Positions 9,021-63,462 of a stretch of DNA of 64,000 bases are shown here, in pieces; position 1 is the stretch's first letter; every line of letters starts with the position of its first letter. The position numbers and the translations under genes are program-made. Under the pieces are notes generated by a model. The model did no database searches, had not been told where the DNA came from, and saw only the letters and a list, made by a program, of their open reading frames with translations. The stretch is taken from contig OZ024929.1 of the NCBI GenBank assembly GCA_964017235.1, positions 26,285,464-26,349,463 of the forward strand. Reading direction: 5' to 3'. Origin of the DNA: Sabellastarte sp. h YS-2021. Its lineage: Eukaryota > Annelida > Polychaeta > Sabellida > Sabellidae.

Positions 9021-9150
9021 TGCTATCTTGCTATCTTGTGGGAACGACTTTCTAACTTGTGGGAACGACTTGCTATCTTGTGGTAATGAGTTGTTAACTT
9101 GTGGTAATGAGTTGCTAATTCATGGTCACAACTTCTTATCTCGTGGGAAC
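9021..9150. repeat. Short inverted copy of the 21-bp minisatellite
   Basis: About six units of the 7800-8470 repeat in opposite orientation (CTTGTGGGAACGACTTTCTA), forming the inner part of the right arm of the 7765-9202 element. Confidence 0.85.
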
Positions 9151-17699: not shown

Positions 17700-18003
17700 C
17701 AAACGGGTCACTTCTGAATTTATCAATATTCAATTTATGATGCTAACGGAAGGTAACAACTTTCTGCATTGGAGTATCCGAAGATGAAAAGTCAATCACA
17801 CAAGAGATAATTTTATGATCACCTATGAAGCCTGAACCTTTTACATCAGAAATTGCAGAAAACTTGGAAGGGGCCATCAGCAAATCTAAGGTATGACCGT
17901 GAAGGTGAGTTGGAAAATCAATGTATTGGAACAGATAGCAAGAATCAATGACTGATTTAACTTCAGAGACTGTTGGAGACATAGGGTCGAGATGAAAATT
18001 AAA
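17700..18003 (-). mobile_element. LINE fragment: end of the endonuclease domain of the outer copy
   Basis: Minus-strand translation from 18003 reads FNFHLDP...FPTHLHGHTLDLL...GDHKIISCVIDF, the C-terminal part of an AP endonuclease domain of an L2/CR1-group LINE. A stop follows VVTFR. The segment starts exactly where the 5' part of the same ORF (19354-20168) stops (LICG), and the intervening 18004-19353 is a second, 5'-truncated LINE. So 17700-18003 and 19354-20168 are two halves of one older copy. Confidence 0.75.
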
Positions 18004-20168: not shown

Positions 20169-20257
20169 CTAGCAAAATAATTAAAATACAGACCACAACC
20201 AAAAAATCACCGAGTAACTGCCGGTAGTGGGCGATAATACCCGCAATATCAACTAGC
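20105..20257. repeat. 83-bp tandem duplication at the LINE 5' end
   Basis: Two copies of ACAGACCACAACC...TCACYGAGTAACT...AATACCCRCAATATC about 83 bp apart, upstream of the minus-strand LINE coding region. Likely a 5' UTR monomer repeat of that LINE. It ends where the plus-strand LINE begins. Confidence 0.7.
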
Positions 20258-32700: not shown

Positions 32701-35700
32701 TTGTCAGCCTGTCACTGGAAGTCTCACAATACCTTCACCCAATTCTATTTGAAGGATGTTGCCTGGGCTGACTTGGAGCTTTTCCACCTGGGACCTGTAG
32801 TGGTTGCCCAACAGGTGCACCACCAGGCCCAGAAGTGAGGAGATATTGTATATATGTAAATATGTACATATTGTAAATATGTTAAATATGTACATAATGT
32901 AAATATTTGATGTACATATATTTTCCAAAAAAAAACAACTGTGACTTGCTTCCTTTGGGAAGTTTATTTCTTCTGGGACTGAACTCAGCCCCTCTCTCTC
33001 TCTATCTTTCCCTTCTCAGACCGACTCTAGAAGGAAAGGAAAAAAGGTGGGGGGGGGGGCAACGTCGGTAGACTCCTGGTTAACCGGTGAGTTGATGGCC
33101 GACCTTGACCTGCCAGGGTTCTCTGACCCTAGGTCAAATGGGCCTGTACAATTTTGTTTGTTATGACTTCACATAAGTCCCTAGCTGCTTACCCGCCTAC
33201 CAAGCGGTAGTTATTCAGCAATTGTCCATTGGATAGGATGTATTAACGCAATAAAATTGCAAATTTAATAAGTAAATTAAATTTTTATAAGTTAATACCC
33301 TATCCAATGGACAGGCAAGGCCCACCCAACCGGCCCCGCTATCAGCTTACTAGGGGTCTTACCAGGATTAGACACGAAAAAGATGCTATGACGTCACGTC
33401 TAGACAGGAAGAGGAAGTACGATGTGCCACCTGGCGAATGCACTCTGCTGACCGGTCCTACCAGTATTATATACAGGACGTCTTTTTCTGGCGTTTGGCG
33501 GGACCGGTCGCGCCGACCGGTAAAGCAATTGTCCATTGGATAGGGTATTAACTTATAAAAATTTAATTTACTTATTAAATTTGCAATTTAGGCTGTTTCC
33601 TTAATAAACTGACAGATTTGTCATGAATTTTGGGTTTGTTTATATCTGCCGCCATATATGCAGGGAGTAAGCGTTATTGGTAGATTCTAAATGTTGAAAC
33701 ACCGTTATTCCTACCGCATCAACATTACGCTTCATCCCGGAATTTGTTTCATGATATAACTAACAATGGAATTGATTATGGCTCCAGCATCGCTCGGAAA
33801 AATGGACGATTAATCGACCATGCAACTTGGAGGCGATTCCCATCACTACTTTCAGTGTAGTTAAGGAAGGCCTGGATAACAGTGATAAAGTGGAGTTTTG
33901 TTCCGTAGAGAATGATCTAAACCTCTTCCAAGATAATGATTAAATATTATCCGATGCTGATGAACTCCTTCAGTCATTGATTAGTGATTTATTTATCACA
34001 AACACTGGCCCATTCCTGAACACCGTGGTCAATTGATTATTTAAATGTTTTCCAGTAACAGTTATTTTTGTTTTTATTGACACAGAAAGACACAGTAACG
34101 CACATATAAAATAATACACCATTTTTTGTTAATAAACTTTGTTAACTCATACTTGTATGTAAAATAAATGCACTTACTCTGTATGAATCATCATGCTACA
34201 CAATCTTACCTGAACCTCAAACTTTCAGACAGTACTCCCATAAAATATCTGATTGGAATATTTCCATCAAGTAAATATATATAAGGCAATATACCTCAGA
34301 CCAGAAAACTCAATTGACCTTTTCAAGGTCAGAATCAAAGCTTCCCAAATCTGTAAGATGACTAGTAAATTTTAAATCATCTGTACATACAATATAAGTG
34401 TTACAACCTTTTAAACTGACATACAGCAGGTGGCAGTTCCATTGTATACAGCATATATTGAAACATTGGCATACAGAGATATACAGGGCCTGTACTACAG
34501 GCCCAACACCTGTATCCGCCCGTATACCTCCTGTATACATGTATACATCTCTAGACCAATCAGATGTCTGGATTTGACCAGAAAAGTTATAGGAAGGTGT
34601 ACTAAACAGTATACAACCATTTTTGGTGTACATTTTAAATGGTAGAAGTGTTTTCAAATCAGCTTCTGATGAGACCTTCAGGTTTACAGGTCAAAGGGTA
34701 TTAAAGGAAACCATTTTATATACCTCAGGCATCCATTTAATTTCTATCTTGTGATTTATAACACATTGTAAACTTTCACTGTATAGACTGGCAAACATAT
34801 TGTTTAATATATTGACAGTATTTAATAGAAACAAATAGTTTTAAATGTTCGTATATAATATTTTATGTGTTTGGTTTGTCATAACATGAGAAAATTTTCT
34901 GAAACCTGTTATTACAGATAATAGTCATTGGTTATTAAAAAACTGGAAGCTGTTTTCTGAGTTAGCAATCTTAACATTCTTGATGAAAAATTTGCTATAA
35001 GTTATCATCTTTTCAGATTCAGAGGATGATGATTCTGAGGATGAAAGTGGACCAAGTCAAAAACTACCCAAGCTGGAGGTCTGGTCTATGAATTTAAAAT
35101 GTATCTGTAATACTTGAGACAGGGTCCCCAGGTGTGGGTGTTGTTTTTTTAGATCATTTTAGAATTGTGTTCAAGTTGGATACTTTGTCTGATTTCCGCA
35201 TTCAAAGTTATTTTTAGGCGGGTTGCGTGTAACCAACCCACCTATTAGATTGATGTGTCCGACGTCCATCTGTCTGTCCACCTTTTCCTTTCCGGACTTT
35301 ACCTTGAAAACGATTTGTCAGATCGAATTCAAACTTGACAGGGAGATAGATCACCATCATAGCTAGGTTCCTTTCGAAATTGGTGTAATTCTGTCTGTTC
35401 GTTTGTCCGTCAACATTTCCGTTTCTGGACTCTTACTCGAAAATGTTTTGTCCAATCGAATTCAAACTTGACAGAGCTAGATCACAATCACAGCTAGGTT
35501 CCTTTTGAAATTGGTGTAATTCTGTGTGTTCGTTTTTCTGTTTTTTGTCCGTTTGTGTGTCCGTCAACATTTCTGTTTCCGGACTCCAACTCGAAAACGG
35601 TTTGTCCAATCAAATTCAAACTTAACAGGGAGATAGATCACCATCATAGCTAGGTTCCTGTCGAAATTGGTGTAATTCTGTCCATCCGTTTGTCTGTTTT

Positions 35701-38700
35701 TTGTCCATTTGTCTGTCCGTCAACATTTCTGTTTCCGGACTCTTAACTCGAAAACGCTGTTTCCAATCGAATTCAAACTTGACAGGGAGATAGATCACCA
35801 TCATAGCTAGGTTCCTGTCGAAATTGGTGTAATTCTGTCCATCCGTTTGTCTGTTTTTTTGTCCATTTGTCTGTCCGTCAACATTTCTGCTTCCGGACTC
35901 TTTACTCGAAAACGCTGTTTCCAATCAAATTCAAACTTGACAGGGAGATAGATCACCATCATAGCTAGGTTCCTTTCGAAATTGGTGTAATTCTGTGTGT
36001 TCGTTTGTCCGTCAACATTCCGTTTCTGGACTCTAACTCGAAAATGTTTTGTCCAATCGAATTCAAACTTGACAGGGAGATAGATCACCATCATAGCTAA
36101 GTTGCTTTCGAAATTGATGTAATTCCATCCTTTCGTTTGTCCATTTATAGCCATAGATACAATTATGTAACCTAGATTACAAGTTTTACATTTCTTAGCA
36201 TGTCTAACACATTCACCTTAACTGGGTGACCTAACATTTCTTTCCTTATTTCTAAATGTAATTACAGCAGTCGCTAACCTTATTGCTGCCTGCGCAACCC
36301 GCCTTTTGGGGCATCTTTGACCCTCTTATCTCTGTGTGTCAGTGGTTTTAACTGATTTCTTGAAAACATTTAATTTTGGTGGCAGAATTTCTTAGTATGC
36401 AATATTGGTAATATTAATGTGTAAAAGTTTGCTTGTGGTATTATTGATCAATAAAGAGGTGTCACTGTGAAGTATTAGTACATCTGTTAATCAATAAGTT
36501 ACTCTTCAGGTGGCTACTGACAGTGAAGATGAAGAATCAGAAGCAGAAGAAACAGTGAAAAAGTCTAAGAATAAAGCAGCCAAAACCAGCGTCACTATCA
36601 AGATGGTCAACCAGTGGTCCAAGGCCCTCAATGTAAGTGGCTTGTGGTGTTAAATAGAAAAAAAACTCCACACAGTCTTCTGTCTTTATAAATCAATAAG
36701 AAAGGTGACATGTTTTTCCAATCAAATTCACTAACTCTACACTGACTGAAATTTAACATCAGTATCTATCTAATCAAGAAATTTTAATGAAAGCCTAAAA
36801 CCCCAATCACGTTACAGGTGGTACTTCCTGCGGTTATAGGTTTTACTCTGAACCATCTCCAAGGATGCCTCATATATTTCGAGATTTGGTGTAATCTATC
36901 ATACTACATGTGGTATAACCTGTGGTTTTATGCATTGGGTGAAATGCCCCTGTCCTTCAGCTACTGTCTGAGGTTCGTATGTGAACTTGTGGCACAGTGG
37001 TAAAGTGTCCAATACCTTCTCTCACCTGATGTCACTGTATTCACTGAAACATGACCGAGTTGCAACCTTACATACACTGTTCACCACACCTTCAGTTACC
37101 GTATTAAAAATTACATCTGCGTGTGCTTATTGTGAGGCAATCGGAGGCGGAAAGTTAAAACATTTTAAAATGTCCGCAGGATGCGTAAGGTATTGGACAT
37201 GTTGCCACTGTGTCAGTAGTTCGCATACCAACCTCGAATAGTAGTTGAAGGAGAGGGGCCTTTCCCCCAACACCTATAACTGCGGGTTATACCACCTGTT
37301 TTGTGATTGGGATATAAAATGGCTGAAAATGGGTGAAATATGGGTTTAAATGTAAATGTATTTAAATGTATTTTAAATGCTCTCTCACTACATTCATTTT
37401 AAAATTGCACGAGAAAGGCATTAAGATTTTGGAAAAAAACCCCCAAAAAAACAGACAAACAAACAAACAAAACAAACCCAATATTTTTAACACTTTCAAG
37501 TAAATTCCAAACACATTTTACCTTGTCATATAAAAACATCAATATATTTATTTTTTATATTTATACCTGTTACAAGTAACCATATCCTTTATCATGCTGC
37601 TGTTTTTCAGCAGAGAAAATCTCCACAGGTCCATTATCTGGCTGTGGGTGTTTTTAGTGTAGTTGTATGTTTATGTTACATGTGGTCATGTTCTGTATTT
37701 TTCTGCCCTTTTTAGGAGAGAGATTCTCTGCAAGCCTTTCATCAGGTTGTCAGTGCGTTTAAGGCGGCGGTGCTGGAGGCGGGGAGTGAAAATACAGAGA
37801 CCCTCTCAAAGTACAGAGTGGAGGGCACTACAGGTATGTATCACAGAACCTGTATTATCTGAACTTGCAGAACAACTTCTCTTATCTGAATCAACACCAA
37901 AAGCTCGGTTATTTGAACTTATGTTGTCGAGATTTTGGTACTGTTGTAATTCTGGTATCTTACTTATTTTGCTCCATGTGGGATCATAGGCCATTGACAA
38001 GCTGTCTCCAACTTGCTCAGTCTGTTGCATCATTCTCTAGCAAGTCCCAACTTTTGCCTGTCGTTTTTTCATTGTTTCTCCTGTCTGATCTTCTTTTGTT
38101 GTGAACTCATTTTAATTTGTTCAGATATTTACTTTATTACTTTGTCAGTTAACACAAGACTGCTTCATGTTATAAAAACTGTTCTTCATGCAAGTGCCTC
38201 ACGTACCCTGTTACAGGCTTTCTAAAATATACCAAATGTTACTTAAACATAGGAATGGACAATAAACTTGTAGAATTTATAACCTTTTATCTTTTATCAC
38301 AATTTTGTAATCCCTTTGCAAACTTATATGCCAAGTCATGTTGAAGTTGAGGTTTCACATCCTTTCTGTGGCTAATGTTGTATCAGGGCAGGTTCTTAGC
38401 ATATCAAATTGGTTGCCGTCAACTGAGTTTGAACCTATGGTCTCAAAGGTAAGAGGCAAGTGATTAAATACCAGATTTGTTAACAGCTGAGTTCTGCCAG
38501 TCCTGCTTAAAGACAGGGGGAGATCTTGTCAGTGTTATATGCAATTCTTTGTGCCTTGAAAACTGTTTCCAAAGTTGGTGGGCTTTATTTTCTCAGTCAA
38601 AAGAATTGAGCATAGTGCAGTTGACTGCTTATTGTATCCCTGGCGCAAAGCGGGGATACTATGGAATCATCGTCGTCGTCCACGTCCATGGAGATTTCTT

Positions 38701-41700
38701 GTTAGCGACCTACAGTCCACATTTCTTTCCAGATTTCTTTCATATTTGGCAGGTGGCTTGGTATGCTAGAGAACTCGCCACCCTATCTTTTTGGTAGGCT
38801 TTATGTCTAAATTAGGCCTGTGGTAGACAAAAATGTCTAAAATGTGGAATACTGCTTGTTAGTGACCTACAGTCCACATTTCTTTCATATTTGGCAGGTG
38901 GCTTGGTATGCTAGAGGACTCGCCACCCTATCTCTTTGGTAGGCTTTATGTCTAAATTAGGCCTGTGGTAGACAAAAATGTCTAAAATGTGGAATACTGC
39001 TTGTTAGCGACCTACAGTCCACATTTCTTTCCACATTTCTTTCATATTTGGCAGGTGGCTTGGTATGCTAGAGGACTCGCCACCCTATCTTTTTTGTAGG
39101 GTTTATGTCTAAATTAGGCCTGTGGTAGACAAAAATGTCTAAAATGTGGAATATTGCTTGTTAGCGACCTACAGTCCACATTTCTTTCATATTTGGCAGG
39201 TGGCTTATCGCTGTCAGAATAACTCATTCATCTACTTTTGGGAGAGCTTTCACATGGTGAAGTTTCAGACCCGTAGATAATTACTCACCTACTCAAAATG
39301 AGTAAATGCGAATTATCTCTAAAAGTATTGCAGATAGCCAATTTTTCTCAAATAACTCATTCACCTACTTTTGGGAGAGCTTTTACTTAGTGAAGTTTCA
39401 GACCCATAGTTAATTACTCACCTACTCAAAATGAGTAAATGTGAATTATCTCTAAAAGTATTGCGGATAGCCAATTTTTCTCTAATAACTCATTCATCTA
39501 CTTTTGGGAGAGCTTTCACATGGTGAAGTTTCAGACCCGTAGCTAATTACTCAGCTACTCAAAATGAGTAAATGCGAATTATCTCTAAAAGTATTGCAGA
39601 TAGCCAATTTTTCTCAAATAACTCATTCACCTACTTTTGGGAGAGCTTTTACTTGGTGAAGTTTCAGACCCATAGCTAATTATTTACCTACTCAAAATGA
39701 GTAAATGCTAATTATCTCTAAAAGTATTGCGGATAGCCAATTTTTCTCAACTCATTCATCTACTTTTGGGAGAGCTTTCACATGGTGAAGTTCCGGACCC
39801 GTAGGTAATTACTCACCTACTCAAAATGAGTAAATGTGAATTATCTCTAAAAGTATTGCTGATAGCCAATTTTTCTCAAATAACTCATTCATATACATTT
39901 TGGAGAGTTTTCAATTAGTGAATTTTCAGATCCTTTACTTACTCACCTACTCAAAATGAGTAAATGCCTATTATCTCTAAAAGTATTGCAGATAGCCAGT
40001 ATTTCTCAAATAACTCATTCACCTACATTTTGGAGAGCTTTCACATGCTAAAGTTTTTTTATGAATTTTTTATATAATTTTTAATGCATTAAATTAAAAT
40101 ATGTTATTCAGCTACTTTTTCCATAGCTACAAAATGCTGAGTAACTTGGGTGTCTATCTCAATAGCTAAGTGAGTAATAGCTACTTTTGGACTTTTCACT
40201 AACTTCCATCATGAGTAAAATCACTTGTAACTTGAAAACTATTGCATTTAGAGAATTTTGTGAGTCTTTGAAGCTCACACCTTTCTTTGGCTTTTTCTGC
40301 CTTTCTTTGTAGATCACACTTGTAGGGGAGTCTGACAGTGCCAGAAGTAGAGAGATCACTGCCCAGTGGGTATCAGTCTGAAAAGAATAACAAATAATCA
40401 AAACATATCCCCTTGAACTTGACATTGCATAGCTGAGTAATAGCTACTTTGAAGTTCTTACCCAACACTAAATCATTTATAACTTGAAAAGTATTGCATT
40501 TTGAGCATTTTGTTAAAATATGTTATTCAGCTACTTTTTCCATAGCTACAACATGGTTAGTAACTTGGGTGTCTATCTCAATAGCTAAGTGAGTAATAGC
40601 TACTTTTGGACTTTTCACTAACTTCCATCATGAGTAAAATCACTTGTAACTTGAAAACTATTGCATTTTTTTTTTGGAGAATTTTGTGCAAATATGTTAT
40701 TCACCTAGTTTTGGGTCAGCTATAACATAGTAAAGTTTCAGACCTCTAGCTCGTGGCATAGCTGAGTAATAGCTACTTTGCCGGTGGATACATTTTGCTT
40801 CTGGCCACAGATGCGTCCTTGGTCTAGTTCAGGTCACCTTTAGAGTCACAAATTATGATGAAAATATTAAAGCTGTGCTAATAAGATGTCTAGAAAATAT
40901 TTGAGGTAAAATCTTACATTACTGTGTAAAACCTCTGTTTTCTGGTTTCAGTTTTCAATGCCATTGTGAGACTATGCATCACCGATATGCTACCAATGCT
41001 GACCAGAGTGTTGAACTTACCTCAAAAAAAGGATTCACAGAAACCAGTGCTGCCATCTAGCAGCTCAAAATGGAAAAAAGTCAAGATGGATGTGAAGTCG
41101 TACCTCACTGATGTCTTTCAGGTTAATCGACTGAAAAGTTAAAAATTTAATTCCAAGTCAAAAAGAGCAAACTTGCCAACAGGTACTATGTTGTATTTAG
41201 TAGGTATAAACAGTGGCTTAATGTCATGAAACGAAGACTTCATAAAACTAGGGGTGTTGCGGTAGCAATTTTTTCCTTCCGGTTTCCCGTCTTTCACTTC
41301 CCGGTCGGTTACCGGTTAACCGTCTCTTATTTAACAAAACATGAGAACCAAATAGTTTCCATACTGTAAAACAGGAATTCTAACATGACACAGATGTTTC
41401 CTCGATTCTGATTGGCTAAATGACGAAATATATGGTTACTCCAAATTATCACTCATTATGGCTGTGATATTACAGTAAATAGCAAATAAAAGTGGATTAT
41501 GACACTTATTTTGTATGTAAGGTTAGAAAAGTTTCTTTACATTGAAGTATAAGCGGAAAACCGGAAGCTGAACTTTATGACGGTTTGCAATAATTTATTT
41601 ACCGTACAGACGATACCGGTACTACCGCAACACCCCGACATAAAATATCAGAAATTTTAAAGAGGTAAATGAAATAATCAATAAAGTTGGCAAATTAATG

Positions 41701-56700: not shown

Positions 56701-59700
56701 TACTGGCTTATGACTTAGCTAGGTTTGAGGACTTTCCCTTTTTACCCCACAGCCCTTAAGGGCTGTCGGGGTATTGTTTTCACCCATGGTGTCCGGATGG
56801 GCGGGCGGGCGGGCGGGGGGAAATAGTTTGTCCGGGCTGTATCTCAGAAACTGTAAGGTGTAGGAAGTTCATACTTGGCAGGGACATTGGTTGGGGGGTG
56901 TAGGTGTGCAACGTCATGGTCTGACCTTGATTTGACCTTTCCGTAGTGACCTTGAGTTTGAAAATCTTGTCTGGGCTATATCTCAGCAACCATAAGGTGT
57001 AGGAAGTTGATACTTGGCAGGGACATTAGTTAGGGGTTGTAGGTTTGCAACGTCATGGTCTGACCTTGATTTGACATTTGACCTTGCCATAGTGACCTTG
57101 ACCTATAAAATCTTGTCCGGGCTATATCTCGGAAATCGTAAGGTGTAGGAAGTTGATACTTGGTAGGGACATTGGTTAGGGGGTGTAGGTGTGCAACGTC
57201 ATGGTCTGACCTTGATTTGACCTTTGACCTTGCCGTAGTGACCTTGACCTATAAAACCTTGTCCGGGCTATATCTCAGCAACTGTAGGGTGTAGGAAGTT
57301 GATACTTGGTAGGGACATTGGTTAGGGGGTGTAGATGTACAACGTCATAGTGTGACCTTGATTTGACCTTTGCCGTAGTGACCTTGACCTATAAAATCTT
57401 ATCCGGGCTATATTTCGGAAACTGTAAGGTGTAGGAAGTTGGTACTTGGTGAGGACATTGATTGGGGGTAGTAGGTGTGCAACATCATGGTGTGACCTTG
57501 ATTTGACCTTTGACCTTGCTGTAGTGAACTTGACCTATAAAACCTGGGGCGGTATTCACTAACATTCCTATCTTAGTCTTAGTCCTAACTTTAATATTTT
57601 TGTCATAAAAATATGTCATTATTGTGCAATCTCTTCGTTAAGACTTTCAATTTCGACATAGTTGTAATTTAAATTTAGTAAATTCCGCTTTATTTGGGTC
57701 TGTTTTGGTTATTTGAAGGTCAATGCTAGGTTAAATTTTATGACTAAGATAGGATTAAGATTAGGAATGTTAGTAAATACCACCCCTGGTCCAGGCTATA
57801 TCTTGGAAACCGTAAGGTGTAGGAAGTTGATACTTGGTAGGGACATTGGTTAGGGGGTGTATGTGTGCTACGTCATAGTGTGACCTTGATTTGACCTTTG
57901 ACCTTGCTGTAGTGACCTTGACCTATAAAATCTTGTCCAGGCTATATCTCAGAGACTGTAAGGTGTAGGAAGTTTATACTTGGTAGGGACATTGGTTGAG
58001 GGTTTTAGGTGTGCCACGTCATGGTGTGACACTGATTGACCTTTGACCTTGCTGTATTGACCTTTATAAAGTCTTGTTGCACCTTTGGGTCTGTCTGTTG
58101 ATGCAGATTAAGCACTGTTAAAGTCATATTAGAATTCATTAAGAATTTCCTTTTGCAAGTTCCCATTGTAACAGATGGAATTTCATCAACACCACACATA
58201 AGCATTCATTGAATGTATTGCCACTTCTGTATGCATGGGTAATATTCAAAACATCCAAACCATAATTCGGCCATTTTTGGTTTACTGATAAGTGCTGTCA
58301 TTTTATTATTGAATTGTTTTGTTTTAATACTTCATCTTTACATACCTTTCTTTTCCTTAGATATTATTTTCTCTACTTAAGCATTATTTGGACCTTAATA
58401 TAACTGACACTGCTCTGAAAGTATCTTGAACTTTGTACTGTTATACTACTTCTATATCTCATGGTGTTGAAAAATATTTCCCCAGGCTGTGGGGTACGGG
58501 CATCTCTGATGCTATTTTTTAGAATTCCAGTGCACTAGGGGATTTTCATCAATTTTGCACTATGCCAATGTTTCTATTATTATTATTATGAAGCTGCATC
58601 TTTGTACAAGCATATTCTGGTGACCATAATACAGAGCCATTGTGGTATGGCCATGTAGCTATGAGGAGCTATAGGGAGATAGATACACAGCATGATACAT
58701 CAGGTATACATGGTGAATCCAATCTATTCACAATCTTACAGTGCTTCAGATACCTCACATTTAAAGCAGTCAGACTGGCATATTTAGAGGTGATGTACAA
58801 TAACTGAGCATATTACTGTGTCTATAAATTTGTGTTCATTCTATCAGTCTTTAAATCTATCAATATAGAGATAAAGCGCAGCAGAAATCTATAAATATTA
58901 ACTCAATGGGATTGGTTGTTCTGACTTATTATATAACTGAAATTGGAACTGAAAAACAACTTCCTCTTGTTTGAAGAAATAGTATTGTAGCTGTTTGCAG
59001 TAAGTTTTGTGTATTTATTACGGGTAGAGCTTGCTTTTGTATTGCTTTAAGTCTGTTCTTTAAAAATTTTCTAAACTGAAATCTTGCAAAGCGTAGTTTA
59101 CTCGTCTTATTTGATGTCTTTGAAATTTCTCTACATTTTGAGGTGTATTTTATAATTCTTTGTTTAAATGTTAACATTGGATGATAATATTTCACAGATA
59201 TTTGTGTGAGAAAGTTTGAGGTATGTTTTGGGATTTATTCATTCAAATAGTAACATTTTGACATGTCTTTTCACAGATTTCATTTTCAAAATATTAAAAT
59301 GTGTATTTAACAGATTTCCTCTGAAAACCTGCCAACAGTTCACCGTCCTGTTCTAGGAAAAGCTACAAAGGAGGAGAAGGCAGAATTCAAAGGATTGTTT
59401 GGGTCAGACAGTGAGAGTGACTCAGACAGTGAGAGGTGAGTTATCTAAGTAACCACATCTGACTGTGAAGCAATTTACATCTGACTAAATTACAGCTTGC
59501 TGAATTTTTAACCCCAGCCCATAAAGGCTGGGTTTATAGTTGTCCCCAGCGCCGTCTGGGTGACGGTGGGCATAGAGCTTGTGGGTGTTCCACAGACTAA
59601 ACCCTTGTACGGATTTTCACCAAATTTTGAGAATATGATAATATCCAAGAGGATCTAGAGCTGTTTTGGGGGGTATCCGGTAACAATTGTTGTCATGGCA

Positions 59701-62700
59701 ACACTTTAAAGATTTTCGGGTCTTAAAGATTGTGGGTGTTCCACAGACTAAACCCCTGCACGGATTGTCACCAAATTTTCAGGAGATGTTTACCCCAAGG
59801 GGATCTAGAGCTGATTAGGATTTGGTGGGTATCCGGTAACAACTGTTGCCATGGCAACACTTTTAAGATTTTTTGAGTGTTAAAGTTTCTGGGTGTTCCA
59901 CAGACTAAACCCCTGTACAGATTTTCACCAAATATTCAGGAGATGTTTGCCCCAAGAGTATCTAAAGCTGATTAGGTTTTGGGAGGTATCCGGTAACAAT
60001 TGTTGCCATGGCAACACTTTTAAAATTTTCGGGTCTTGAAGCTTGTGGGTGTTCCACAGACTAAACCCCTGCACGGATTTTCACCAAATATACAGAATAT
60101 GTTTACCCCAAGAGACTCTAGAGCTGATTAGGTTTTGGGTAGTATCTGGTAACAACTGTTGCCATGGCAACACTTTTAAGATTTTTCGGATCTTAAAGCT
60201 TGTGGGTGTTCCACAGACTAAACCCCTGCACGGATTGTGACCAAATTTGCAGAATATGTTTACCCCAAGAGTATCAAGAGCTAATTAGGTTTTGGGCAGT
60301 ATCCGGTAACAACTGTTGCCATGGCAACACTTTTAAGATTTTTGGGTCTTAAAGTTTGTGGGTGTTCCACAGACTAAAGCCCTGCACGAATTTTCACCAA
60401 ATTTTCAGGATATGTTTATCCCAAGAGAATCTACAGCTGATTAGGTTTTGGGAGGTATCCAGCTACCACTGTTGCCATGGCAACACTTTTAAGATTTTCA
60501 GGTCTTAAAGTTTCTGGGTGTTTCACAGCCTAAACCCCTGCACGGATTTTCACCAAATTTTCAGGATATGTTTGTCCAAAGAGGATCTAGAACTGATTAA
60601 GTTTGGGGGGTATCCGGCGGCAACTGTTGCCATGGCAGCACTTTAAAATTGGGGGTCTTAAAGTTTCTTCTAAAATCTTTGATATTTTCTGTAACCTAAA
60701 ATATTGCAGCTAGCTTCATCAGATTAGCACAAAATGTAAATGGATAAGAAAGCTTGCCTAAAAGTAATTGTGTCCTTGTTTTGGAAACAAAATGACGACC
60801 ATATCACATCTTTAATGCCAAATAGGAGGGTCATCATATCAAAAAGGCCTTATATCTTATCTCCCTTGTAATTGCTTCTAGGGCTTCAAAATATGAAAAC
60901 TACTTGTAAGAAATCATGGCCTGTGAATCTTTTGTAGAACATCTCGTGGGTTCTCTGTACTTCTGACAACAGAAGTTGTTCTTAAGAATTTCCCAAATCT
61001 CAATGTTGTTGGCCATTTAGCTGTACCTACGGGCTGGGGTTCTTGCCTTCCGAGGCTGGCTATTTTCAATCTTTCTGATAAACTTGGATCTTGCTAGCTT
61101 AATTAGGCCAGGAAGTGACAGTGAGTTCAATAGAGAGAGGTATATGAGTCTTAGTAGCTTGAAGCTTGTGAACAGATTTTAGTCTGAGTAACTTAAAGCT
61201 TGTATGAAGAAGTTCAGGTGGTTCTTTGGGTCTGGTAGTGATAGTTAAGTCTGAGTAACTTCAAACTTGCTACAAGTATCTAATACAGGGGACCTTGACC
61301 TCGTCAACATTACATTTTGACCTGTGATCAGTTGATCATCTTTGATCATGGTTTGGAATTTAGGACAAGTGATGGTGACTATAGTTATGGACAAAATTAT
61401 ATCCTAGGTGTAATTTGTAAATAAATAGTTTTTGAAATAAGAAGACATACTGTAATGGAGTATTGTGAGAAAACTGCTGTTGAACTGTGCTTCACTCTCT
61501 TCTGTTTCAGGTTTCTGCTGAAAGAAGAAAGAAAAGGGACGAAAAAGCAAAAACTAAAGAAGATGGAGGTAGATGAGGAATCAGATTCTGACATATACAG
61601 GTGTGTTATTAATATTCTTACCTGTGCTCAGGTGTGGAAGGGATCATCTTTACTGTGCACAGTTTGTCATATTAATCATCTTACCTGTCTTCAGGTGTGT
61701 TATTATATCAGGGATATACTGGTTTCATATCTATCGTGCCGCCGCCATACATTTTCACTTGTGTGCATGATAACTCAAAAACGCTTTCACAGATTTCATT
61801 CATGCTTGGCACACACATGTATATGGGTCAGGGGAGGAGCCCTATTGTAAGGTGACCTTAAACTCCCAATAATAAAGAAGTTATGGGCACCTTAATGTCA
61901 GAAATTTGACCTTTGGCCAATTAATGCCCTCTATGTCAAAAACTAAGTGGCTCATCTAGCTCATGTTTTATCAGGGAACACATTATTACATTCTTCTTCT
62001 ATAGCCAAAAATCAAGACTTTATGTTAATGATAAAATTATGTTTGAGGCCCATAAAGGCCATACTTAGACATTTATTTTCTACATTTTTCACATATTTTG
62101 CCCAGTAACTTGGAACTGGTAAGTCTGACAAATCTCAAACAAGTCCATATGTAATCTTTGTCAGTGGAAAATTTGGAGTCTGTAGCATTAATTTTATGGT
62201 AACCTTAAGGTCTCTTAAAATTCCCGTAGAGACCCAATTTATTGACTTTTTGCTATTTTTAAGCCCTATAGCTGTCATACTGTGTGGTTGATAAAGCTGA
62301 AATCTCCTCTGGGAATATATTAATATATTCTTTCGAATTTCTTACTACAGTAACCGAAGGTGTGGTCCACGAGGTACATAGGTTTGTGATTCAGTTGTCT
62401 TTTGGTGTAATATAGCGACATAAAGCGCATGGAGGAACATGGGACGTTTTGCCAGTGTTACAGAAGGTTGTATACAAATCTCGAAACGGTAATTGAAGAA
62501 CAGGGGTGTTTCGCCAAACGCCTATAACTGCGAATTACACCGCTGGTAGTGTGAACAACTCGGATGAAATTGGGCGATCTAGGAGACGGTTCCTGTAACT
62601 GCGGGACACACCGCCTGTAGTGTGAAAGGGGCATAAAATCAATCTGGTGGTAAATGATTGTTTAGAAAGTGATTGGTTATCTGTTTATATAATTTTTTTC

Positions 62701-63462
62701 CTATTTTTATCCTGTCTTGTTCATAACTTTTAAAATAACATGAACTGAGTTATCTACTTTTAATGTTAATTATGTGCAAATCTAAGCAAAAATGGTATAG
62801 CTGAAAAAGTGAAAAAATGAAAAATGGTTTATAATAAACATGAATCAGACAAAAGTGGTGTGAGATATGGCCTGTCTGGGAATATGTTGATATCGAGCTG
62901 GCACAATCTAGTTAATCACCTTCCTTACCTGTACTCGGGTGTGCAATTGATCGTGTCACCTGAGTACAGGTATATTATTAATCATCTTACCTGTGTTCAG
63001 CTGTTTTTACAGATACTAACTACATTAACTAAGACTTTAGAGCAATCACAGGTATTAATAATTTGAACTCATAGAAATTGGAATTTTTGTGTGCAGAACC
63101 GTGTACTGTTTTATAGCCATTTCAGACTGCACATATTAATTTTGTGTAGATTTGTGTAAATATTTACAAGATATTACTCCTTTATAGACATTTAATGCCA
63201 CTGTTTTAGTGATTTCGATGAGGAAGAGATGGCAGCTCTGGATAAATCTGCCAGTGATGATGATGAAGATGATAGTGACCCAGAAAGTGAAAGTGACATG
63301 GACAGTGAAGGTGATGGAGAAAGTGAAAGTGAAGGTGATAGCGAGGAACATTCCAAGCTGAAAAGTAGGAAAAAGAAAGTGGAGGAGGAATCAGAGGAGT
63401 CAGATGAAGGGGACATGGTGGAAGATTTTAATTTGTCTGATTTTGAAGAAGACAAGGATTAA
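23694..63462 (+). CDS. NOC2L: NOC2-like nucleolar complex protein, complete 19-exon gene
   Basis: Orthologue of yeast Noc2 and human NOC2L (NIR). Noc2 pairs with Noc1 and then Noc3 to escort pre-60S ribosomes through nucleolus and nucleoplasm; the vertebrate protein also inhibits histone acetylation at p53 targets. Coding exons: 23694-23710, 26254-26400, 26644-26771, 35017-35078, 36510-36632, 37716-37833, 40952-41121, 42337-42447, 47996-48109, 49849-50037, 50547-50686, 50982-51093, 51454-51567, 53968-54069, 55640-55783, 56520-56633, 59314-59435, 61511-61600, 63210-63462. All borders are GT/AG and phases agree, giving 789 residues (human 749). Order: a basic start with SVDAFL, a charged low-complexity stretch, the conserved Noc2 domain (about residues 160-600), then a basic then very acidic C-terminus. 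Start: first ATG of a short exon giving MPGKKRK. Introns total about 37 kb and are packed with repeats. Confidence 0.95.
23711..26253. other. NOC2L intron 1 (2.5 kb)
   Basis: AT-rich. No recognised transposon, gene or array. Short open frames lack family resemblance. Confidence 0.45.
26254..26400 (+). CDS. NOC2L: NOC2L exon 2
   Basis: Residues 6-55, beginning [19 protein letters not shown], the counterpart of the vertebrate TVDEFL motif, then a Lys/Glu-rich tract. Acceptor TTTCCAG, donor CAAG|GTTTGT. Confidence 0.92.
26644..26771 (+). CDS. NOC2L: NOC2L exon 3
   Basis: Residues 55-98 with [16 protein letters not shown] and LLNFN, strongly conserved in the family. Acceptor ATGACTAG, donor TCAG|GTAAAT. 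Confidence 0.93.
26772..27576. other. Start of NOC2L intron 3, before the DIRS element
   Basis: Contains a short CA-rich microsatellite (about 27313-27330) and a weak tRNA-like stretch near 27485-27540. Otherwise unremarkable. Confidence 0.4.
27577..27990. repeat. 207-bp tandem duplication spanning host DNA and the DIRS left end
   Basis: Two direct copies offset by 207 bp (27577-27783 and 27784-27990). Each has ATTCATCATTATCATCG host-like sequence, the AT-rich element edge and the first part of the DIRS inverted terminal repeat up to GAGAGTGCATTC. The copies differ at only a few bases. Only the second continues into the element. Confidence 0.88.
27883..28050. repeat. DIRS left inverted terminal repeat
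   Basis: About 168 bp from TATCCAATGGACAATTGC through ACCGGTCGGCGCGACCGGT to TAGACGTGACGTCATAGC. Inverted match to 33375-33538 with small differences. Rich in ACCGGT palindromes and with TGACGTCA, a CRE-type octamer. Confidence 0.9.
28164..30096 (+). pseudogene. DIRS gag-like ORF1 with two frameshifts
   Basis: Starts [15 protein letters not shown]; an early Cys-rich segment (CKCARC...[10 protein letters not shown]) is the zinc-finger-like start typical of DIRS Gag. Then a basic/Ser-rich region, an acidic region, and a C-terminal conserved part ([25 protein letters not shown]) ending in a Lys-rich tail at 30096. The frame moves near 28825 (stop at 28844) and again near 29165, so three frames are needed to read through. 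Presumed role: particle-forming nucleic-acid-binding protein. Confidence 0.8.
30400..30756 (+). pseudogene. DIRS reverse transcriptase, N-terminal fingers only
   Basis: Reads [11 protein letters not shown], then [19 protein letters not shown] and [16 protein letters not shown], the start of a DIRS-type RT. The frame then leaves the family within about ten codons. The palm motifs (the DLxDAYxHI block and the catalytic DD box) are absent, and the next recognisable sequence (30764 on) belongs after the palm, one frame away. A deletion of roughly 100-150 codons is inferred. Confidence 0.8.
30764..31909 (+). pseudogene. DIRS RT connection, RNase H and methyltransferase-like region
   Basis: Open 381-codon frame. 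It starts in the RT connection ([20 protein letters not shown]), then RNase H with [13 protein letters not shown] (Asp), [10 protein letters not shown] (Glu), [17 protein letters not shown] (Asp) and [16 protein letters not shown]. The tail with [18 protein letters not shown] and [10 protein letters not shown] is typical of DIRS-group polymerases and is often described as methyltransferase-like. A 10-G run at 31261-31270 lies in the RNase H codons without breaking the frame. The N-terminus is an artefact of the upstream deletion. Confidence 0.85.
31750..32838 (+). CDS. DIRS tyrosine recombinase
   Basis: About 340 residues, one frame from and overlapping the RNase H ORF by about 160 bp, the usual DIRS arrangement. 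A SAM-like core-binding half ([35 protein letters not shown]) is followed by the catalytic half: [12 protein letters not shown] (first Arg), [11 protein letters not shown] (His-x-x-Arg) and [10 protein letters not shown] (nucleophile Tyr). All four catalytic residues are present and the frame is intact to 32838, so this is the best preserved part of the element. It would integrate the circular DNA intermediate. In the window the frame happens to stay open back to 30292; that upstream extension is not recombinase. Confidence 0.85.
   Translation: MHTKPCVSALQPGPSQEPVAARIEAPQRRSTRSVYEAKWTIFTKWCLGNQVDLRPPPLKAIADFLLHLFQDKKLQPGTIDGYRSAIADKLGNSTINVSKDENLTRLLDSFHRDRPKGRRGIPSWSLSLVLHQLTKAPFEPLKEASLKHLTFKTVFLLALGSGKRRSEIHAWLHKNIRHQSDWSQVSLYPSPSFLSKNQLAKEGPDSVAPVVIPALAPSLDKSLKGDRSLCPVRALRYYLDRTADLRQNKELVFVSFKKGFDKDISPATISSWIKQTVILCYELSDREALTLHQVKAHDVRAFAASKAFQSGISLDQILSACHWKSHNTFTQFYLKDVAWADLELFHLGPVVVAQQVHHQAQK
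32839..33217. other. DIRS 3' untranslated region
   Basis: After the recombinase stop: TGTAAATATGTACATA repeats, an A-run, a CT-rich stretch, a run of 11 G (about 33049-33058) and non-coding sequence up to the internal complementary region. Confidence 0.6.
33218..33313. repeat. DIRS internal complementary region
   Basis: The left half (33218-33253, GCAATTGTCCATTGGATAGG on) is the reverse complement of the outer left edge 27867-27905. The right half (33251-33313) is the reverse complement of the outer right edge 33526-33589. The halves meet at an AAA/TTT overlap. This is the diagnostic DIRS structure used to template circularisation. Confidence 0.88.
33375..33538. repeat. DIRS right inverted terminal repeat
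   Basis: Inverted copy of 27883-28050, with the same TGACGTCA, GAATGCACTC and ACCGGTCGCGCCGACCGGT blocks. Point differences and a few short indels separate the arms. Confidence 0.9.
33590..35016. other. Remainder of NOC2L intron 3
   Basis: AT-rich. A strong hairpin GGGCCTGTA-C-TACAGGCCC at 34485-34503 lies in a patch with several TGTATAC motifs (34430-34645). No gene recognised. Confidence 0.45.
35017..35078 (+). CDS. NOC2L: NOC2L exon 4
   Basis: Residues 98-118, acidic: [19 protein letters not shown]. Acceptor TTTTCAG, donor GGAG|GTCTGG, weaker than the others. Confidence 0.85.
35217..36303. mobile_element. Hairpin-headed minisatellite element, family A, copy 1
   Basis: The left end GGCGGGTTGCG is matched by CGCAACCCGCC at the right end (11 bp). 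The left end also folds on itself (GGTT-GCGTGT-AACC). The interior has about six tandem units of 115-180 bp built on TCCGGACTCTAACTCGAAAA, TCCAATCGAATTCAAACTTG, ACAGGGAGATAGATCACCAT and GGTTCC...AAATTGGTGTAATTC. A non-repeated right segment (36140-36303) is shared with copy 2 at 51903-52875, as are about 25 bp beyond it. No coding function; an open frame on the minus strand is a repeat artefact. Confidence 0.8.
36510..36632 (+). CDS. NOC2L: NOC2L exon 5
   Basis: Residues 119-159: acidic start ([13 protein letters not shown]), basic stretch, then [13 protein letters not shown], the start of the conserved region. Acceptor CTCTTCAG, donor AAT|GTAAGT. Confidence 0.93.
36802..37311. mobile_element. 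MITE-like inverted-repeat element in NOC2L intron 5
   Basis: The left end CCAATCAC...ACAGGTGGTA...GCGGTTATAGG is matched in inverted form by CCTATAACTGCGGGTTATAC, CACCTGT and GTGATTGG at the right (about 45 bp with mismatches). 510 bp, non-coding. A related right-end sequence occurs near 62520-62635. No clear target duplication. Confidence 0.65.
37716..37833 (+). CDS. NOC2L: NOC2L exon 6
   Basis: Residues 160-199: [20 protein letters not shown] and YRVEGTT. Acceptor CTTTTTAG, donor ACAG|GTATGT. Confidence 0.92.
38690..39205. repeat. ~150-bp tandem repeat, about four copies
   Basis: Unit: TGTTAGCGACCTACAGTCCA, CATTTCTTTC..ATATTTGG, CAGGTGGCTTGGTATGCTAG, ACTCGCCACCCTATCT, TAGGCTTTATGTCTAAATTA, GACAAAAATGTCTAAAATG. 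Copies are very similar, so amplification is recent. Confidence 0.85.
39220..40050. repeat. ~132-bp tandem repeat, seven copies
   Basis: Unit: ATAACTCATTCACCTACTTT, GGGAGAGCTTT, GTGAAGTTTCAGACCC, ATTACTCACCTACTCAAAAT, GAGTAAATGCGAATTATCTC, AAAAGTATTGCAGATAGCC. The TACTCAAAATGAGTA core is a palindrome. Copies diverge slightly, more so toward the right. Confidence 0.88.
40081..40760. repeat. Tandem repeat shared with 46.5-47.4 kb
   Basis: Units with ATATGTTATTCAGCTACTTT, GAGTAACTTGGGTGTCTATC, AGCTAAGTGAGTAATAGCTA and GTAACTTGAAAACTATTGCA. The same unit fills element G (46160-47529), along with its lead-in TTTTTAATGCATTAAA. So two elements with different ends share one interior. Confidence 0.8.
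40952..41121 (+). CDS. NOC2L: NOC2L exon 7
   Basis: Residues 199-255: [20 protein letters not shown], a Lys/Ser linker, then [17 protein letters not shown]. Acceptor GGTTTCAG, donor TCAG|GTTAAT. Confidence 0.93.
41249..41638. mobile_element. hAT-like MITE in NOC2L intron 7
   Basis: The left end TAGGGGTGTTGCGGTAG is matched by CTACCGCAACACCCCGA at the right. The flanks CATAAAAC and CATAAAAT agree at 7 of 8 bases, as expected for an old hAT 8-bp duplication. 390 bp with CCGGTTACCGG-rich interior; non-coding. Confidence 0.75.
42337..42447 (+). CDS. NOC2L: NOC2L exon 8
   Basis: Residues 256-292: [32 protein letters not shown]. Acceptor TATCGCAG, donor AAG|GTGAGT. Confidence 0.95.
42776..46012. 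mobile_element. Hairpin-headed minisatellite element, family C
   Basis: The left end ATATCCCCAGAC folds with GTCGGGGATAT nearby and is also matched by GTCTGGGGATAT at 46001-46012 (12 bp); a second near-identical right end lies at 45873-45883. After the hairpin comes a nine-fold GCC run (about 42820-42846). Then about six tandem units of 340-350 bp (43000-44850; ATTTGGACTTTTTGCCACTT, TTAAGCCCTGTGACTGT, CAAACTATGTGACTGATAGA, TTTTGCCCTGTAACTTGGAA) and unique AT-rich sequence. 3.2 kb in NOC2L intron 8. A short relative lies at 61704-62925. Confidence 0.75.
45374..45404 (+). other. G-quadruplex-type G-rich run
   Basis: Four or more runs of three to five G separated by 1-3 bases on the coding strand of NOC2L intron 8 (GGGGAGAGGGGTGGGGGTGG, then further G runs). 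It fits the G3N1-7 pattern; whether it folds is untested. Confidence 0.6.
46160..47529. mobile_element. Hairpin-headed minisatellite element, family G
   Basis: The left end GTCAGCTGAC continues into a hairpin AGCTGACT-TATC-AGTCAGCT; GTCAGCTGAC recurs at the right end (47520-47529). The interior is about seven diverged units (TTGTAACTTGAAAACTATTG, TTAAATATGTT, CAGCTATAACATAG, GCATAGCTGAGTAATAGCTA) of the kind also seen at 40081-40760. The right end is followed by a second hairpin GCCCGT-TC-ACGGGC. Confidence 0.72.
47534..47747. repeat. ~107-bp direct duplication
   Basis: Two near-identical copies starting AGCCCGTTCACGGGCACTGA and running through ATTAAATTAATTTGGAG and CTTCCAGCTAAATTTTC. It directly follows element G, so it may be a duplicated right flank. 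Confidence 0.9.
47996..48109 (+). CDS. NOC2L: NOC2L exon 9
   Basis: Residues 293-330: [20 protein letters not shown] and [12 protein letters not shown], core of the Noc2 domain. Acceptor CTATTTTAG, donor CAAG|GTAAGC, which is repeated downstream in the intron. Confidence 0.95.
48104..48775 (+). repeat. Degenerate repeat of the exon 9 splice donor
   Basis: The donor context ATCAAGGTAAGCTGCA recurs at about 48191, 48271, 48696 and (shorter) 48756, plus a weaker TTAGGTAAGC at 48167. Most are followed by GTTACACCTGT-type sequence. A hAT-like MITE (48293-48682) splits the array. Confidence 0.78.
48293..48682. mobile_element. hAT-like MITE inside the exon 9 donor array
   Basis: Ends TAGGGCTG and CAGCCCTA, typical of hAT elements. 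Flanks CAGTCAAC and GTCACAAC agree only roughly, so the target duplication has decayed or one end is imprecise. The interior repeats CGAGTA/TACTCG and GAGTAACCG motifs. 390 bp, non-coding. Confidence 0.65.
48918..49421. mobile_element. hAT-like MITE with perfect 8-bp target duplication
   Basis: Element 48926-49413 (488 bp), starting TAGGGATGGGTCGG and ending CCAACCCATCCCTA, flanked by exact CAAATCAG on both sides (48918-48925, 49414-49421). End sequence and 8-bp duplication are diagnostic of hAT. The two short open frames inside are not hAT transposase. Confidence 0.9.
49640..49800. repeat. Dispersed repeat, copy 2
   Basis: Matches 9525-9665: GATCCAGATCACCA, CGTTCCTTGTAC, ATTCATCCACCTGTATC, TTTTGAGTTATTTTGCAAA, followed by AAACAAACGAACG and ACCCCCTTGGCAGAAGC. 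Probably an old short interspersed repeat. Confidence 0.6.
49849..50037 (+). CDS. NOC2L: NOC2L exon 10
   Basis: Residues 331-393: [54 protein letters not shown]. The most strongly conserved part of the protein. Acceptor ATTTTCAG, donor AAAG|GTACAG. Confidence 0.96.
50547..50686 (+). CDS. NOC2L: NOC2L exon 11
   Basis: Residues 394-440: [35 protein letters not shown]. Acceptor TTTTGTAG, donor CAA|GTAAGA. Confidence 0.96.
50982..51093 (+). CDS. NOC2L: NOC2L exon 12
   Basis: Residues 440-477: [20 protein letters not shown] and [11 protein letters not shown]. Acceptor GGTGTAG, donor GAG|GTAATC. Confidence 0.96.
51454..51567 (+). CDS. NOC2L: NOC2L exon 13
   Basis: Residues 478-515: [20 protein letters not shown]. 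Acceptor ATGTTAAG, donor AAG|GTGAGA. Confidence 0.95.
51903..52875. mobile_element. Hairpin-headed minisatellite element, family A, copy 2
   Basis: Same ends (GGCGGGTTGCG / CGCAACCCGCC), interior units and right-hand unique segment as 35217-36303. The head has a GATGTGT...GATGTGT duplication not in copy 1. NOC2L intron 13, same orientation as copy 1. Confidence 0.82.
53222..53614. mobile_element. Probable hAT-like MITE in NOC2L intron 13
   Basis: Element 53230-53606, with short ends TAGTG and CACTA, flanked by ATAAGTAT and ATAAGTGT (7 of 8 identical). The interior has GATAAACCGTTATGCGGTTT and GGAACCGGTAA. Beyond the first bases the terminal repeats are poorly matched, so the call rests on the flanks. 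Confidence 0.5.
53811..53956 (+). mobile_element. tRNA-derived SINE, copy 1, beside the exon 14 acceptor
   Basis: CCTAATGGTTTGCGAGTTTG (tRNA-like A-box region), ATCACAGGCTGTCA, a diverged B-box region, GGCCTGTCCCAATATGACC, ending near TTTGACTTTGAC. It aligns along its length with 54661-54800. It ends about 11 bases before exon 14. Confidence 0.7.
53968..54069 (+). CDS. NOC2L: NOC2L exon 14
   Basis: Residues 516-549: [20 protein letters not shown] then LALPSVIQ. Acceptor ACTTTTCAG, close to a SINE. Donor ACAG|GTAAAT, repeated many times downstream. Confidence 0.96.
54060..54535 (+). repeat. Minisatellite built on the exon 14 splice donor, about 17 copies
   Basis: TTATACAGGTAAATACTGT and variants recur every 20-45 bp from the exon end to 54535. 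Exact ACAGGTAAAT occurs six times including the true donor; others read ACAGGTAAAC, ACAGGTAATT, GAGGTAAATA, TAGGTAGATA and similar. Many retain a plausible GTAAAT or GTAAAC donor. Confidence 0.9.
54661..54800 (+). mobile_element. tRNA-derived SINE, copy 2
   Basis: CGGCCTAGTTGTTGGTAAGT (A-box-like), ATCATAGGCTGTCACC, TGTGTTCGAGTCCC (good B-box), then GGCCCTGTCCCAATATGACC and GTGACTTTGATAT. The RNA polymerase III boxes and the match to 53811-53956 support a tRNA-derived SINE. Confidence 0.75.
54815..55639. other. Remainder of NOC2L intron 14
   Basis: AT-rich. No repeat or gene recognised. Confidence 0.4.
55640..55783 (+). CDS. NOC2L: NOC2L exon 15
   Basis: Residues 550-597: [40 protein letters not shown]; end of the Noc2 domain. 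Acceptor CCACTGCAG, donor GTG|GTGAGT. Confidence 0.96.
56520..56633 (+). CDS. NOC2L: NOC2L exon 16
   Basis: Residues 598-635: [20 protein letters not shown] and a charged helix. Acceptor ACTTTCAG, donor ATG|GTCAGT. Confidence 0.95.
56743..58496. mobile_element. Hairpin-headed minisatellite element, family B
   Basis: The left end TACCCCACAGCCC-TTAA-GGGCTGT..GGGGTA is a strong hairpin. Its left arm TACCCCACAGCC is matched exactly by GGCTGTGGGGTA at 58485-58496 (12 bp). A GGGC repeat (about 56800-56820) is followed by about eight units of 130-150 bp: GGGCTATATCTCAGAAAC, GTAAGGTGTAGGAAGTTGAT, ACTTGGCAGGGACATTGGTT, TGACCTTGATTTGACCTTTG. NOC2L intron 16. A MITE (57546-57786) interrupts it. Confidence 0.85.
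57546..57786. mobile_element. MITE inserted in the family B array
   Basis: Ends GGGGCGGTATTCACTAACAT and ATGTTAGTAAATACCACCCC with about 45 bp of inverted repeat containing TCTTAGTC blocks. 241 bp, non-coding. It splits one unit of the surrounding array, so it arrived after the array grew. Target duplication ambiguous (possibly CCTG). Confidence 0.8.
59314..59435 (+). CDS. NOC2L: NOC2L exon 17
   Basis: Residues 636-676: [20 protein letters not shown], then [11 protein letters not shown]. Acceptor TTTAACAG, donor AGAG|GTGAGT. Confidence 0.94.
59510..61041. mobile_element. Hairpin-headed minisatellite element, family D, with RFX-type X-boxes
   Basis: The left end AACCCCAGCCC folds with GGCTGGG (seven-base stem) and is matched by GGGCTGGGGTT at 61031-61041 (11 bp). 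About seven units of 150-160 bp (59580-60650): TGTGGGTGTTCCACAGACTA, CCCCTGCACGGATTTTCACC, TTACCCCAAGAG, ATCTAGAGCTGATTAGG, GGTATCCGGTAAC, CTGTTGCCATGGCAACACTT. Unique right part 60660-61030. NOC2L intron 17. Confidence 0.85.
61511..61600 (+). CDS. NOC2L: NOC2L exon 18
   Basis: Residues 676-706: basic [20 protein letters not shown] then DIY. Acceptor CTGTTTCAG, donor ACAG|GTGTGT. Confidence 0.9.
61591..61715 (+). repeat. Short repeat built on the exon 18 splice donor
   Basis: ACAGGTGTGTTATTAAT...CTTACCTGTGCTCAGGTGTG recurs at about 61670-61705 and, after the family F insertion, at 62928-63005. The unit contains the donor CAGGTGTG and, in inverted form, CTTACCTGT. Confidence 0.7.
61704..62925. 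mobile_element. Short relative of the family C element
   Basis: The start TATATCAGGGATATACTGG...GCCGCCGCC matches the family C head with its hairpin middle lost. The core (AAGGTGACCTTAAACTCCCA, TTTTGCCCAGTAACTTGGAA) and the right end CCTGTCTGGGAATATGTTG...CAATCTAGTTAAT match family C near 46000. Between 62345 and 62640 lies sequence related to the 36802-37311 MITE. Inserted in the exon 18 donor repeat. Confidence 0.65.
63210..63462 (+). CDS. NOC2L: NOC2L exon 19 (acidic C-terminus and stop)
   Basis: Residues 706-789 plus TAA. Almost entirely Asp/Glu/Ser ([15 protein letters not shown]...) with a short KSRKKK patch and a final [10 protein letters not shown]. Acidic tails are usual for NOC2L; this one is long. 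Acceptor TGTTTTAG. Confidence 0.93.

Follow-up and report, generated by a model that had tools for sequence, protein, structure and literature searches.

The window, a stretch of 64,000 nucleotides of Sabellastarte sp. DNA (C3:26285464-26349463) from a searched genome of 1.786 Gb, carries six families of repeated elements (A, B, C, D, E and G). We are highly confident, from their sequence, that these elements are HINEs, that is, non-autonomous Helentrons, which would be moved in trans by a Rep, a helicase and an endonuclease, in a rolling-circle manner, into T-runs. The kind was identified by the palindrome after the tail, the T-rich ends and a parent element, which was found for family A. The kind itself is known. 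The member families are new, and so are the family A partner, with its internal minisatellite, and the doubling of head and array in that partner.

Elements and gene context in the window

The elements follow one order, in which arrays of 131-351 bp units come after a head and, in A, B, C and E, a short triplet or tetranucleotide run. Family A has two copies. The first (A1, 35216-36328, +), placed by its ends, array, boundaries and Helentron alignment, has the head GGCGGGTTGCG with its IR, a GTCY-like run recognised by eye, and several monomers of 131-158 bp; its 3′ subTIR CGCAACCCGCC lies at 36293-36303, and the terminal region runs to ..CTCTT. The second (A2, 51902-52901, +) has the head, the array and a 3′ subTIR at 52865-52875. 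The family C element (42776-46038, +) has the head ATATCCCCAGAC/GTCGGGGATAT, a (CGC)n run and a 351-bp array, and its 3′ subTIR at 46001 is followed by a palindrome, then by ..CAATCTAG and then by TT. A second, decayed C-family element (61705-62911, +), whose head is partly lost and whose tail has 7 mismatches, still ends in ..CAATCTAG followed by TT.

The family G element (46160-47560, +) consists of the hairpin head GTCAGCTGAC, a 154-bp array, a 3′ subTIR at 47520, the palindrome GCCCGttcaCGGGC and an end in ..CTTG followed by TT. Family B (56743-58514, +) has the hairpin head TACCCCACAGCC, a GGGC run seen by eye, a 146-bp array, a 3′ subTIR at 58485, the palindrome GCATCtctGATGC and a T-rich end, and family D (59510-61062, +) has the hairpin head AACCCCAGCCC, a 156-bp array, a 3′ subTIR at 61031, the palindrome GCCTtccgAGGC and a T-rich end. 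Element E (38634-40791, +) has a hairpin head, a CGT run (by eye) and two arrays of 145 and 133 bp; the second array and the stretch up to 40780 are related to family G, and the right end is uncertain. A second E-type head was present in another fetched place (L064).

A single domain match, that of a frame at 55511-55819 on the + strand to Noc2 (PF03715, E 2.1e-10), supports a putative NOC2L gene context with + as the sense strand. The eight placed elements (A1, E, C, G, A2, B, D and the second C; 35216-62911) all lie on this same strand. Their uniform orientation could be due to chance or to the selection made by the earlier reader; among the places of A, B and D listed genome-wide, both strands were represented.

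Other features were also noted in the window. A long frame at 30097-32835 gave a weak match to the tyrosine recombinase family (PF00589, 2.7e-4), under the cut-off, and by eye similar sequence flanks it on both sides within 27577-33600; this region resembles a DIRS-type retroelement. Reverse-transcriptase frames occupy 17746-22363, with matches to PF00078 at 18145-19710 on the minus strand and at 21066-21581 on the plus strand, pointing apart. A minisatellite at 7815-9126 has a 21/42-bp unit, TCGTTCCCACAAGATAGAAAG, and a unit that is roughly its reverse complement is arrayed at 9027-9126.

Pairing and folding of the ends

The initial annotation had described left ends that fold into a local hairpin and are also exactly complementary to a right end located far downstream. 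The quoted ends were all present at their positions, and A, B, C, D and G each have an exact downstream reverse complement. Head and tail start at 35217/36293 and 51903/52865 in the two family A copies (11 bp of exact complement), at 42776/46001 in C (12 bp), at 46160/47520 in G (10 bp), at 56743/58485 in B (12 bp) and at 59510/61031 in D (11 bp). The end word of G is its own reverse complement, so that its head and tail are identical words. The hairpins were likewise borne out, as all six heads that were folded were more stable than shuffled sequence (z of -3.1 for A copy 1, -3.9 for C, -4.9 for G, -5.8 for B, -3.3 for D and -2.8 for E). The diverged tail proposed for E was not supported: the candidate at 40782 matches at 7 of 10 positions and is one of three such matches among about 2,800 scanned places.

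A palindrome was found after each of the five tails (A, B, C, D and G). Its folding z was -3.4 in G, -3.1 in B, -1.5 in C, -1.2 in A and 0.0, the level of the shuffles, in the window copy of D. The palindromes can be written as TTGGcGCC..GGCcCAA in C, GGG..CCC in A and GCCT..AGGC in D.

The three-arm design was more frequent than expected by chance. In a stringent scan of both strands the tail had to match as an exact 10-mer, and the local arm was allowed a single mismatch or a one-base indel. It returned 17 loci, whereas 200 dinucleotide shuffles averaged 0.27 and never exceeded 3. Among the 17 are all of the named copies, two of A and one each of C, G, B and D; the further 11 are eight loci at 3-8 kb and those at 13555, 29161 and 34496. 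Because only six of the 17 are characterised elements, the stringent scan by itself does not point to a specific class. A looser scan, which missed A and B, found 41 loci, while 100 shuffles gave 9.0 on average and 22 at most. The counting of head-tail pairs alone was rejected as proof, since exact 10-mer inverted pairs (1040 against a shuffle mean of 525) are not element-specific.

Boundaries and target in genome copies

A first-look search with the heads gave 2674 candidates for A, 877 for B and 2270 for D, with 40 scored per family. Twenty places per family were then fetched by head match; the heads are therefore present by construction and the boundaries are not. It had been predicted that genome copies would end at the hairpin and at the complementary tail, and in A, B and D the similarity indeed ended at the hairpin and just past the tail. 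The tail was kept in 50 of the 60 copies (A 19/20, B 17/20, D 14/20) and was followed by a short palindrome and a T-rich end, and the DNA past the tails of the three families differed from copy to copy.

At least four T were found among the five bases before the head in 58 of 60 copies (A 19/20, B 20/20, D 19/20; the exceptions are L026 and L061), when in family A the pentamer was counted before the leading A of the head. Typical junctions are TTTTTA|GGCGGG in A, TTTT|TACCCC in B and TTTTT|AACCCC in D. The length of the T-run was exactly five T in 16/20 copies of A, four T in 20/20 of B and five T in 15/20 of D. This constancy suggests that part of the run belongs to the element. In family B the three bases before TTTT were C in 55, 85 and 80% of the copies, and these may come from the target or be part of the element.

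The data on C, G and E come from few copies, found either in the window itself or in places fetched for another purpose. In this material, all six C heads follow TT and three C tails end in ..CAATCTAG followed by TT, while three of four G tails end in ..CTTG and one in ..CTTC, with TT after each. A hairpin lies just before the 3′ end, which is CTAG in C and CTTG in G and A. These endings, with TT after them, recur in different families and come near to the CTRR of canonical Helitrons; they may be a shared terminator. Some G-family heads (L025, L058, L092) abut the T-rich 3′ end of an A or D element or lie near a Helentron-like tail, as would be expected if the T-runs there serve as new targets.

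Empty sites were searched by a joined-flank test within the fetched DNA. Both flanks were available for 50 of 60 copies, and seven gave a match across the join. Two of these are paralogous empty sites inside the window: that of a family A insertion (L028) at 33217-33355 (+), 95% identical and carrying no insert, and that of a family B insertion (L048) at 47415-47549 (+), 91% identical and located inside element G. The other five were set aside. L017 was an artefact, being the same place as L002; L034 and L040 were weak (72-74%); and L021 and L031 matched diverged sequence or monomers (73-76%). A third clean empty site was found at a C11 locus, where a C-family element lies within a Helentron gene and another copy of the gene reads straight through; this C element is 99.5% identical to the window C over 745 bp of its 3′ part. 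With the A element taken to run A..CTTG and the C element ATAT..CTAG, a count by hand at the empty sites of A (L028) and C indicates a gain of two T and no other duplication, and the B case (L048) a gain of four T if the element is cut at CTA. The two T could be a TT duplication or T carried by the element, between which the count does not distinguish; the part of Thomas et al. (PMC4067079) used here also leaves the distribution of T open for mites.

The autonomous Helentron partner of family A

The domain PF14214 (Helitron_like_N) was detected at 24 places in this genome and at none in 14 control genomes. One of the family A parent copies is C3:168666692-168678958 (12,267 bp), in which an A head, A monomers, a second A head, a second array, the coding sequence and the A terminal region follow one another. 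It has an open frame of 2245 codons. The 2189 codons that were tested matched DUF6570, Helitron_like_N (2.7e-25), PIF1 (2e-27) and Exo_endo_phos, the last at 2.2e-4, which is below the curated cut-off. The Rep motif VEFQHRGSPHLH in the 2245-aa ORF has the Helentron-type S in motif 2 (RGSPHxH), in agreement with the criterion reported by Thomas et al. (PMC4067079), in the part of that paper used here, that motif 2 of Helentron-type Rep has S. A further ORF of 236 aa in the parent, its second, matched no Pfam family, so that no RPA was seen.

The other parent copy, C2:137358596-137371138 (12,543 bp), has an interrupted frame and is 98.5-99.0% identical to the C3 copy in the two main aligned blocks. 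Both copies start at a family A head at the 5′ end, and their flanks showed no similarity where these were compared, over 392 and 362 bp at the 5′ end and over 364 bp in each of the two 3′ flanks. L088 and L094, read on the 3′ side, also end at the HINE terminus, and all four 3′ flanks are mutually unrelated.

A1 corresponds to positions 1-1117 and 12083-12265 of the Helentron, with 72-81% identity over the variable arrays and 87.5% over the tail; A2 aligns likewise, with a tail 89% identical. The last ~185 bp of family A close the parent element. On these alignments, HINE-A is the Helentron minus its middle, a deletion derivative.

The two parents differ in their head-to-head spacing, which is 600 bp in one and 768 bp in the other, and the difference of 168 bp is one monomer. 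Within the Helentron frame (L077/L079, L078/L080), a 126-bp in-frame repeat was also observed in 5.4 and 6.4 copies, again one unit apart. By eye, the sequence that the inner head follows, ..TTCGTTTTTA, resembles a T-tract inside an A monomer, so that the inner head probably arose when one member of the family inserted into the array of a second. A second internal head was found in none of 20 HINE-A copies.

The A-type endonuclease was found at no fewer than 30 near-full-length places with 97-100% identity, among the 71 matches listed (150 of 447 candidates scored), and only 4 of the 24 Rep places adjoin it (on C3, C2, C4 and C11). The same 823-codon frame was noted at 10 of the 30 endonuclease places, most of which have no PF14214 nearby. 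The A-type gene may mostly be present in coding forms that lack Rep through an internal deletion. At L092, an A-like tail lies next to a 53-65% relative of the endonuclease.

A partner of B, C, E or G was not found at the Rep and endonuclease loci examined. For family D there is one decayed locus on C5, in which a head-like sequence (L090, about 8314; 3 mismatches in 11), D-like monomers of about 71% identity, a Rep match with four stops, an endonuclease-like frame, and a D array and tail (87%) follow in this order. Five Rep or endonuclease loci (L083, L084, L087, L091 and L093) showed no clear family tail; L087 was read short of its 3′ end, and L091 and L093 were read over 1.2 kb.

Relations among the families

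The families had been described as unrelated in sequence. This does not hold for G and E, and several families share a weak likeness after the head. The G array and the second array of E align with a score of 216 against a null maximum of 129. The D array also matched, on the opposite strand, the array at 13262-13712 (score 186, null maximum 107); the latter is a 120-bp array for which element ends were not found. Over about 70 bp after the head, weak similarity was obtained for A-B, A-E, D-E, A-C and B-C (p ≤ 0.006 each, uncorrected), that is, for 5 of the 15 possible pairs of the six families; for A-B the count was 0 of 500. The test comprised 21 uncorrected pairs, six of which are biased, as they involve a seventh sequence (the L031 flank) that was added for its likeness. 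The same stretch of G showed no similarity to the other five families (p 0.28-0.97). An ancestral leader common to the families is a possibility rather than a demonstrated fact.

Comparison with published elements and rival explanations

Vojvoda Zeljko et al. (2020, PMC7492417) described HINEs of Crassostrea gigas, which, in the part of their paper used here, have subTIRs of 11-12 bp with a complementary IR of 7-12 bp located 1-12 bp away, a microsatellite, tandem repeats of 100-500 bp in fixed orientation, and a 3′ subTIR followed by a palindrome, and which enter T-rich targets without duplication. The Sabellastarte elements share the subTIR/IR plan; several Cg_HINEs have a GTCY-type microsatellite, as seen by eye in A, and some have two arrays, as E does. 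The likeness is one of plan, the sequences not having been compared, and family A differs in having a partner that itself carries the array; in that part of their paper, the authors were unable to relate the oyster HINEs to autonomous Helentrons. A bivalve tandem-repeat HINE tied to an autonomous partner was not found in our searches of open-licence literature. The Pearl elements of bivalves (Gaffney et al. 2003), as cited in the same part of PMC7492417, have up to six central repeats of ~160 bp and belong to the same architecture class, again by plan and with sequences not compared.

In the part of the article by Thomas et al. (2014, PMC4067079) used here, Helentrons and HINEs are similar to family A in the Rep/helicase/AP endonuclease parent, in subTIRs common to the parent and its derivatives, in the 3′ stem-loop, in the T-run ends and in the origin by deletion. 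Mite HINEs in the same part have palindromic subTIRs, as G does here, and the Drosophila DINE-1 has an IR arm nested in its 5′ subTIR. The parent of family A differs from these Helentrons in that no RPA was seen and in having two head-plus-array units in a row. The subTIRs in these published plans (PMC7492417, PMC4067079, as far as used here) are 11-15 bp long; exact inverted repeats of 11-12 bp were found in A, B, C and D and of 10 bp in G, and were not confirmed for E.

The initial annotation had proposed a non-autonomous, minisatellite-carrying element unlike MITEs and, beyond this, a new class. The former part agrees with our results through the parent of family A and the ends, although the palindromes past the tails and the T-rich ends had gone unmentioned. 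The latter is contradicted by the published HINE plan: the three-arm design is real and commoner than chance, but together the oyster HINEs and DINE-1 show that the design of one arm, its complement, and the complement again far away was already published (parts of PMC7492417 and PMC4067079), and family A has a Helentron parent. We therefore give a categorically new class of element practically no weight.

A MITE has symmetrical terminal inverted repeats and is flanked by a target-site duplication. Ordinary MITEs, that is, deletion derivatives of cut-and-paste TIR transposons, would suit the complementary ends, the lack of visible coding capacity and the high copy number, and elements of such a kind were annotated as MITEs earlier (Thomas et al., PMC4067079, in the part used here). 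However, the right repeat is subterminal and has a palindrome after it, and the clean A and C empty sites show no target duplication beyond a possible TT. The parent of family A encodes Rep, PIF1 and endonuclease, which refutes this explanation for A, and for the elements as a whole we consider it extremely improbable.

Canonical Helitrons end in CTRR at the 3′ side, begin with TC, insert between A and T and have no terminal inverted repeats. An origin from such Helitrons, not from Helentrons, would be consistent with the CTAG end of C and the CTTG ends of G and A, each with a hairpin just upstream, and no partner was found for C, G, B and E at the loci examined. On the other hand, subTIRs are present at both ends, insertion is into T-runs, the 5′ ends are not TC, and among five families the CTAG end occurs only in C. 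The family A partner, moreover, has a C-terminal endonuclease and the Helentron-type S in its Rep motif. We regard derivation from canonical Helitrons as very unlikely, and the elements are best read as HINEs.

Proposed mechanism and meaning

If the elements are HINEs, Rep would act at the T-rich 5′ end beside the head hairpin, one strand would be peeled off, copying would stop at the 3′ palindrome past the 3′ subTIR, and the copy would join a T-run. By pairing with the head in place of its local arm, the 3′ subTIR may draw the ends together, so that the local hairpin and the head-tail pairing would form a plausible switch. The array would ride along, gaining or losing whole monomers. Both parents span the outer head, the inner head and one tail between unrelated flanks, which fits a start at a head and a stop at the first tail. 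We observed the ends, the target, the deletion relation, the protein domains and the one-monomer difference in length between the parents; nicking, strand transfer and the role of the competing hairpin are inferred, and the scheme is presumed to extend to B, C, D, E and G.

It was proposed, in the part of PMC7492417 used here, that tandem-repeat HINEs spread satellite-like DNA in bivalves, and there the autonomous partners are unresolved in oyster. Family A, which also gives a concrete pair of enzyme and ends, provides a chain: a Helentron with an open Rep/helicase/endonuclease frame, derivatives made by deletion that keep its ends, and an array that is one monomer longer in one of two near-identical parents than in the other. 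This favours an array that is intrinsic to the parent rather than captured by each derivative.

We also suggest, tentatively and at somewhat less than even odds, that in Helentrons the head and tandem array constitute a 5′ module that can be stacked. Insertion of a Helentron would take place in the T-tract of a family member's array, and the resulting composite would then move as one unit, which begins at the outer head, includes the inner one and stops at the first tail. Both Helentron copies that were read at the 5′ end are built in this way. If such stacking takes place, minisatellites would be grown and spread by the autonomous rolling-circle elements themselves, beyond hitch-hiking in their offshoots.
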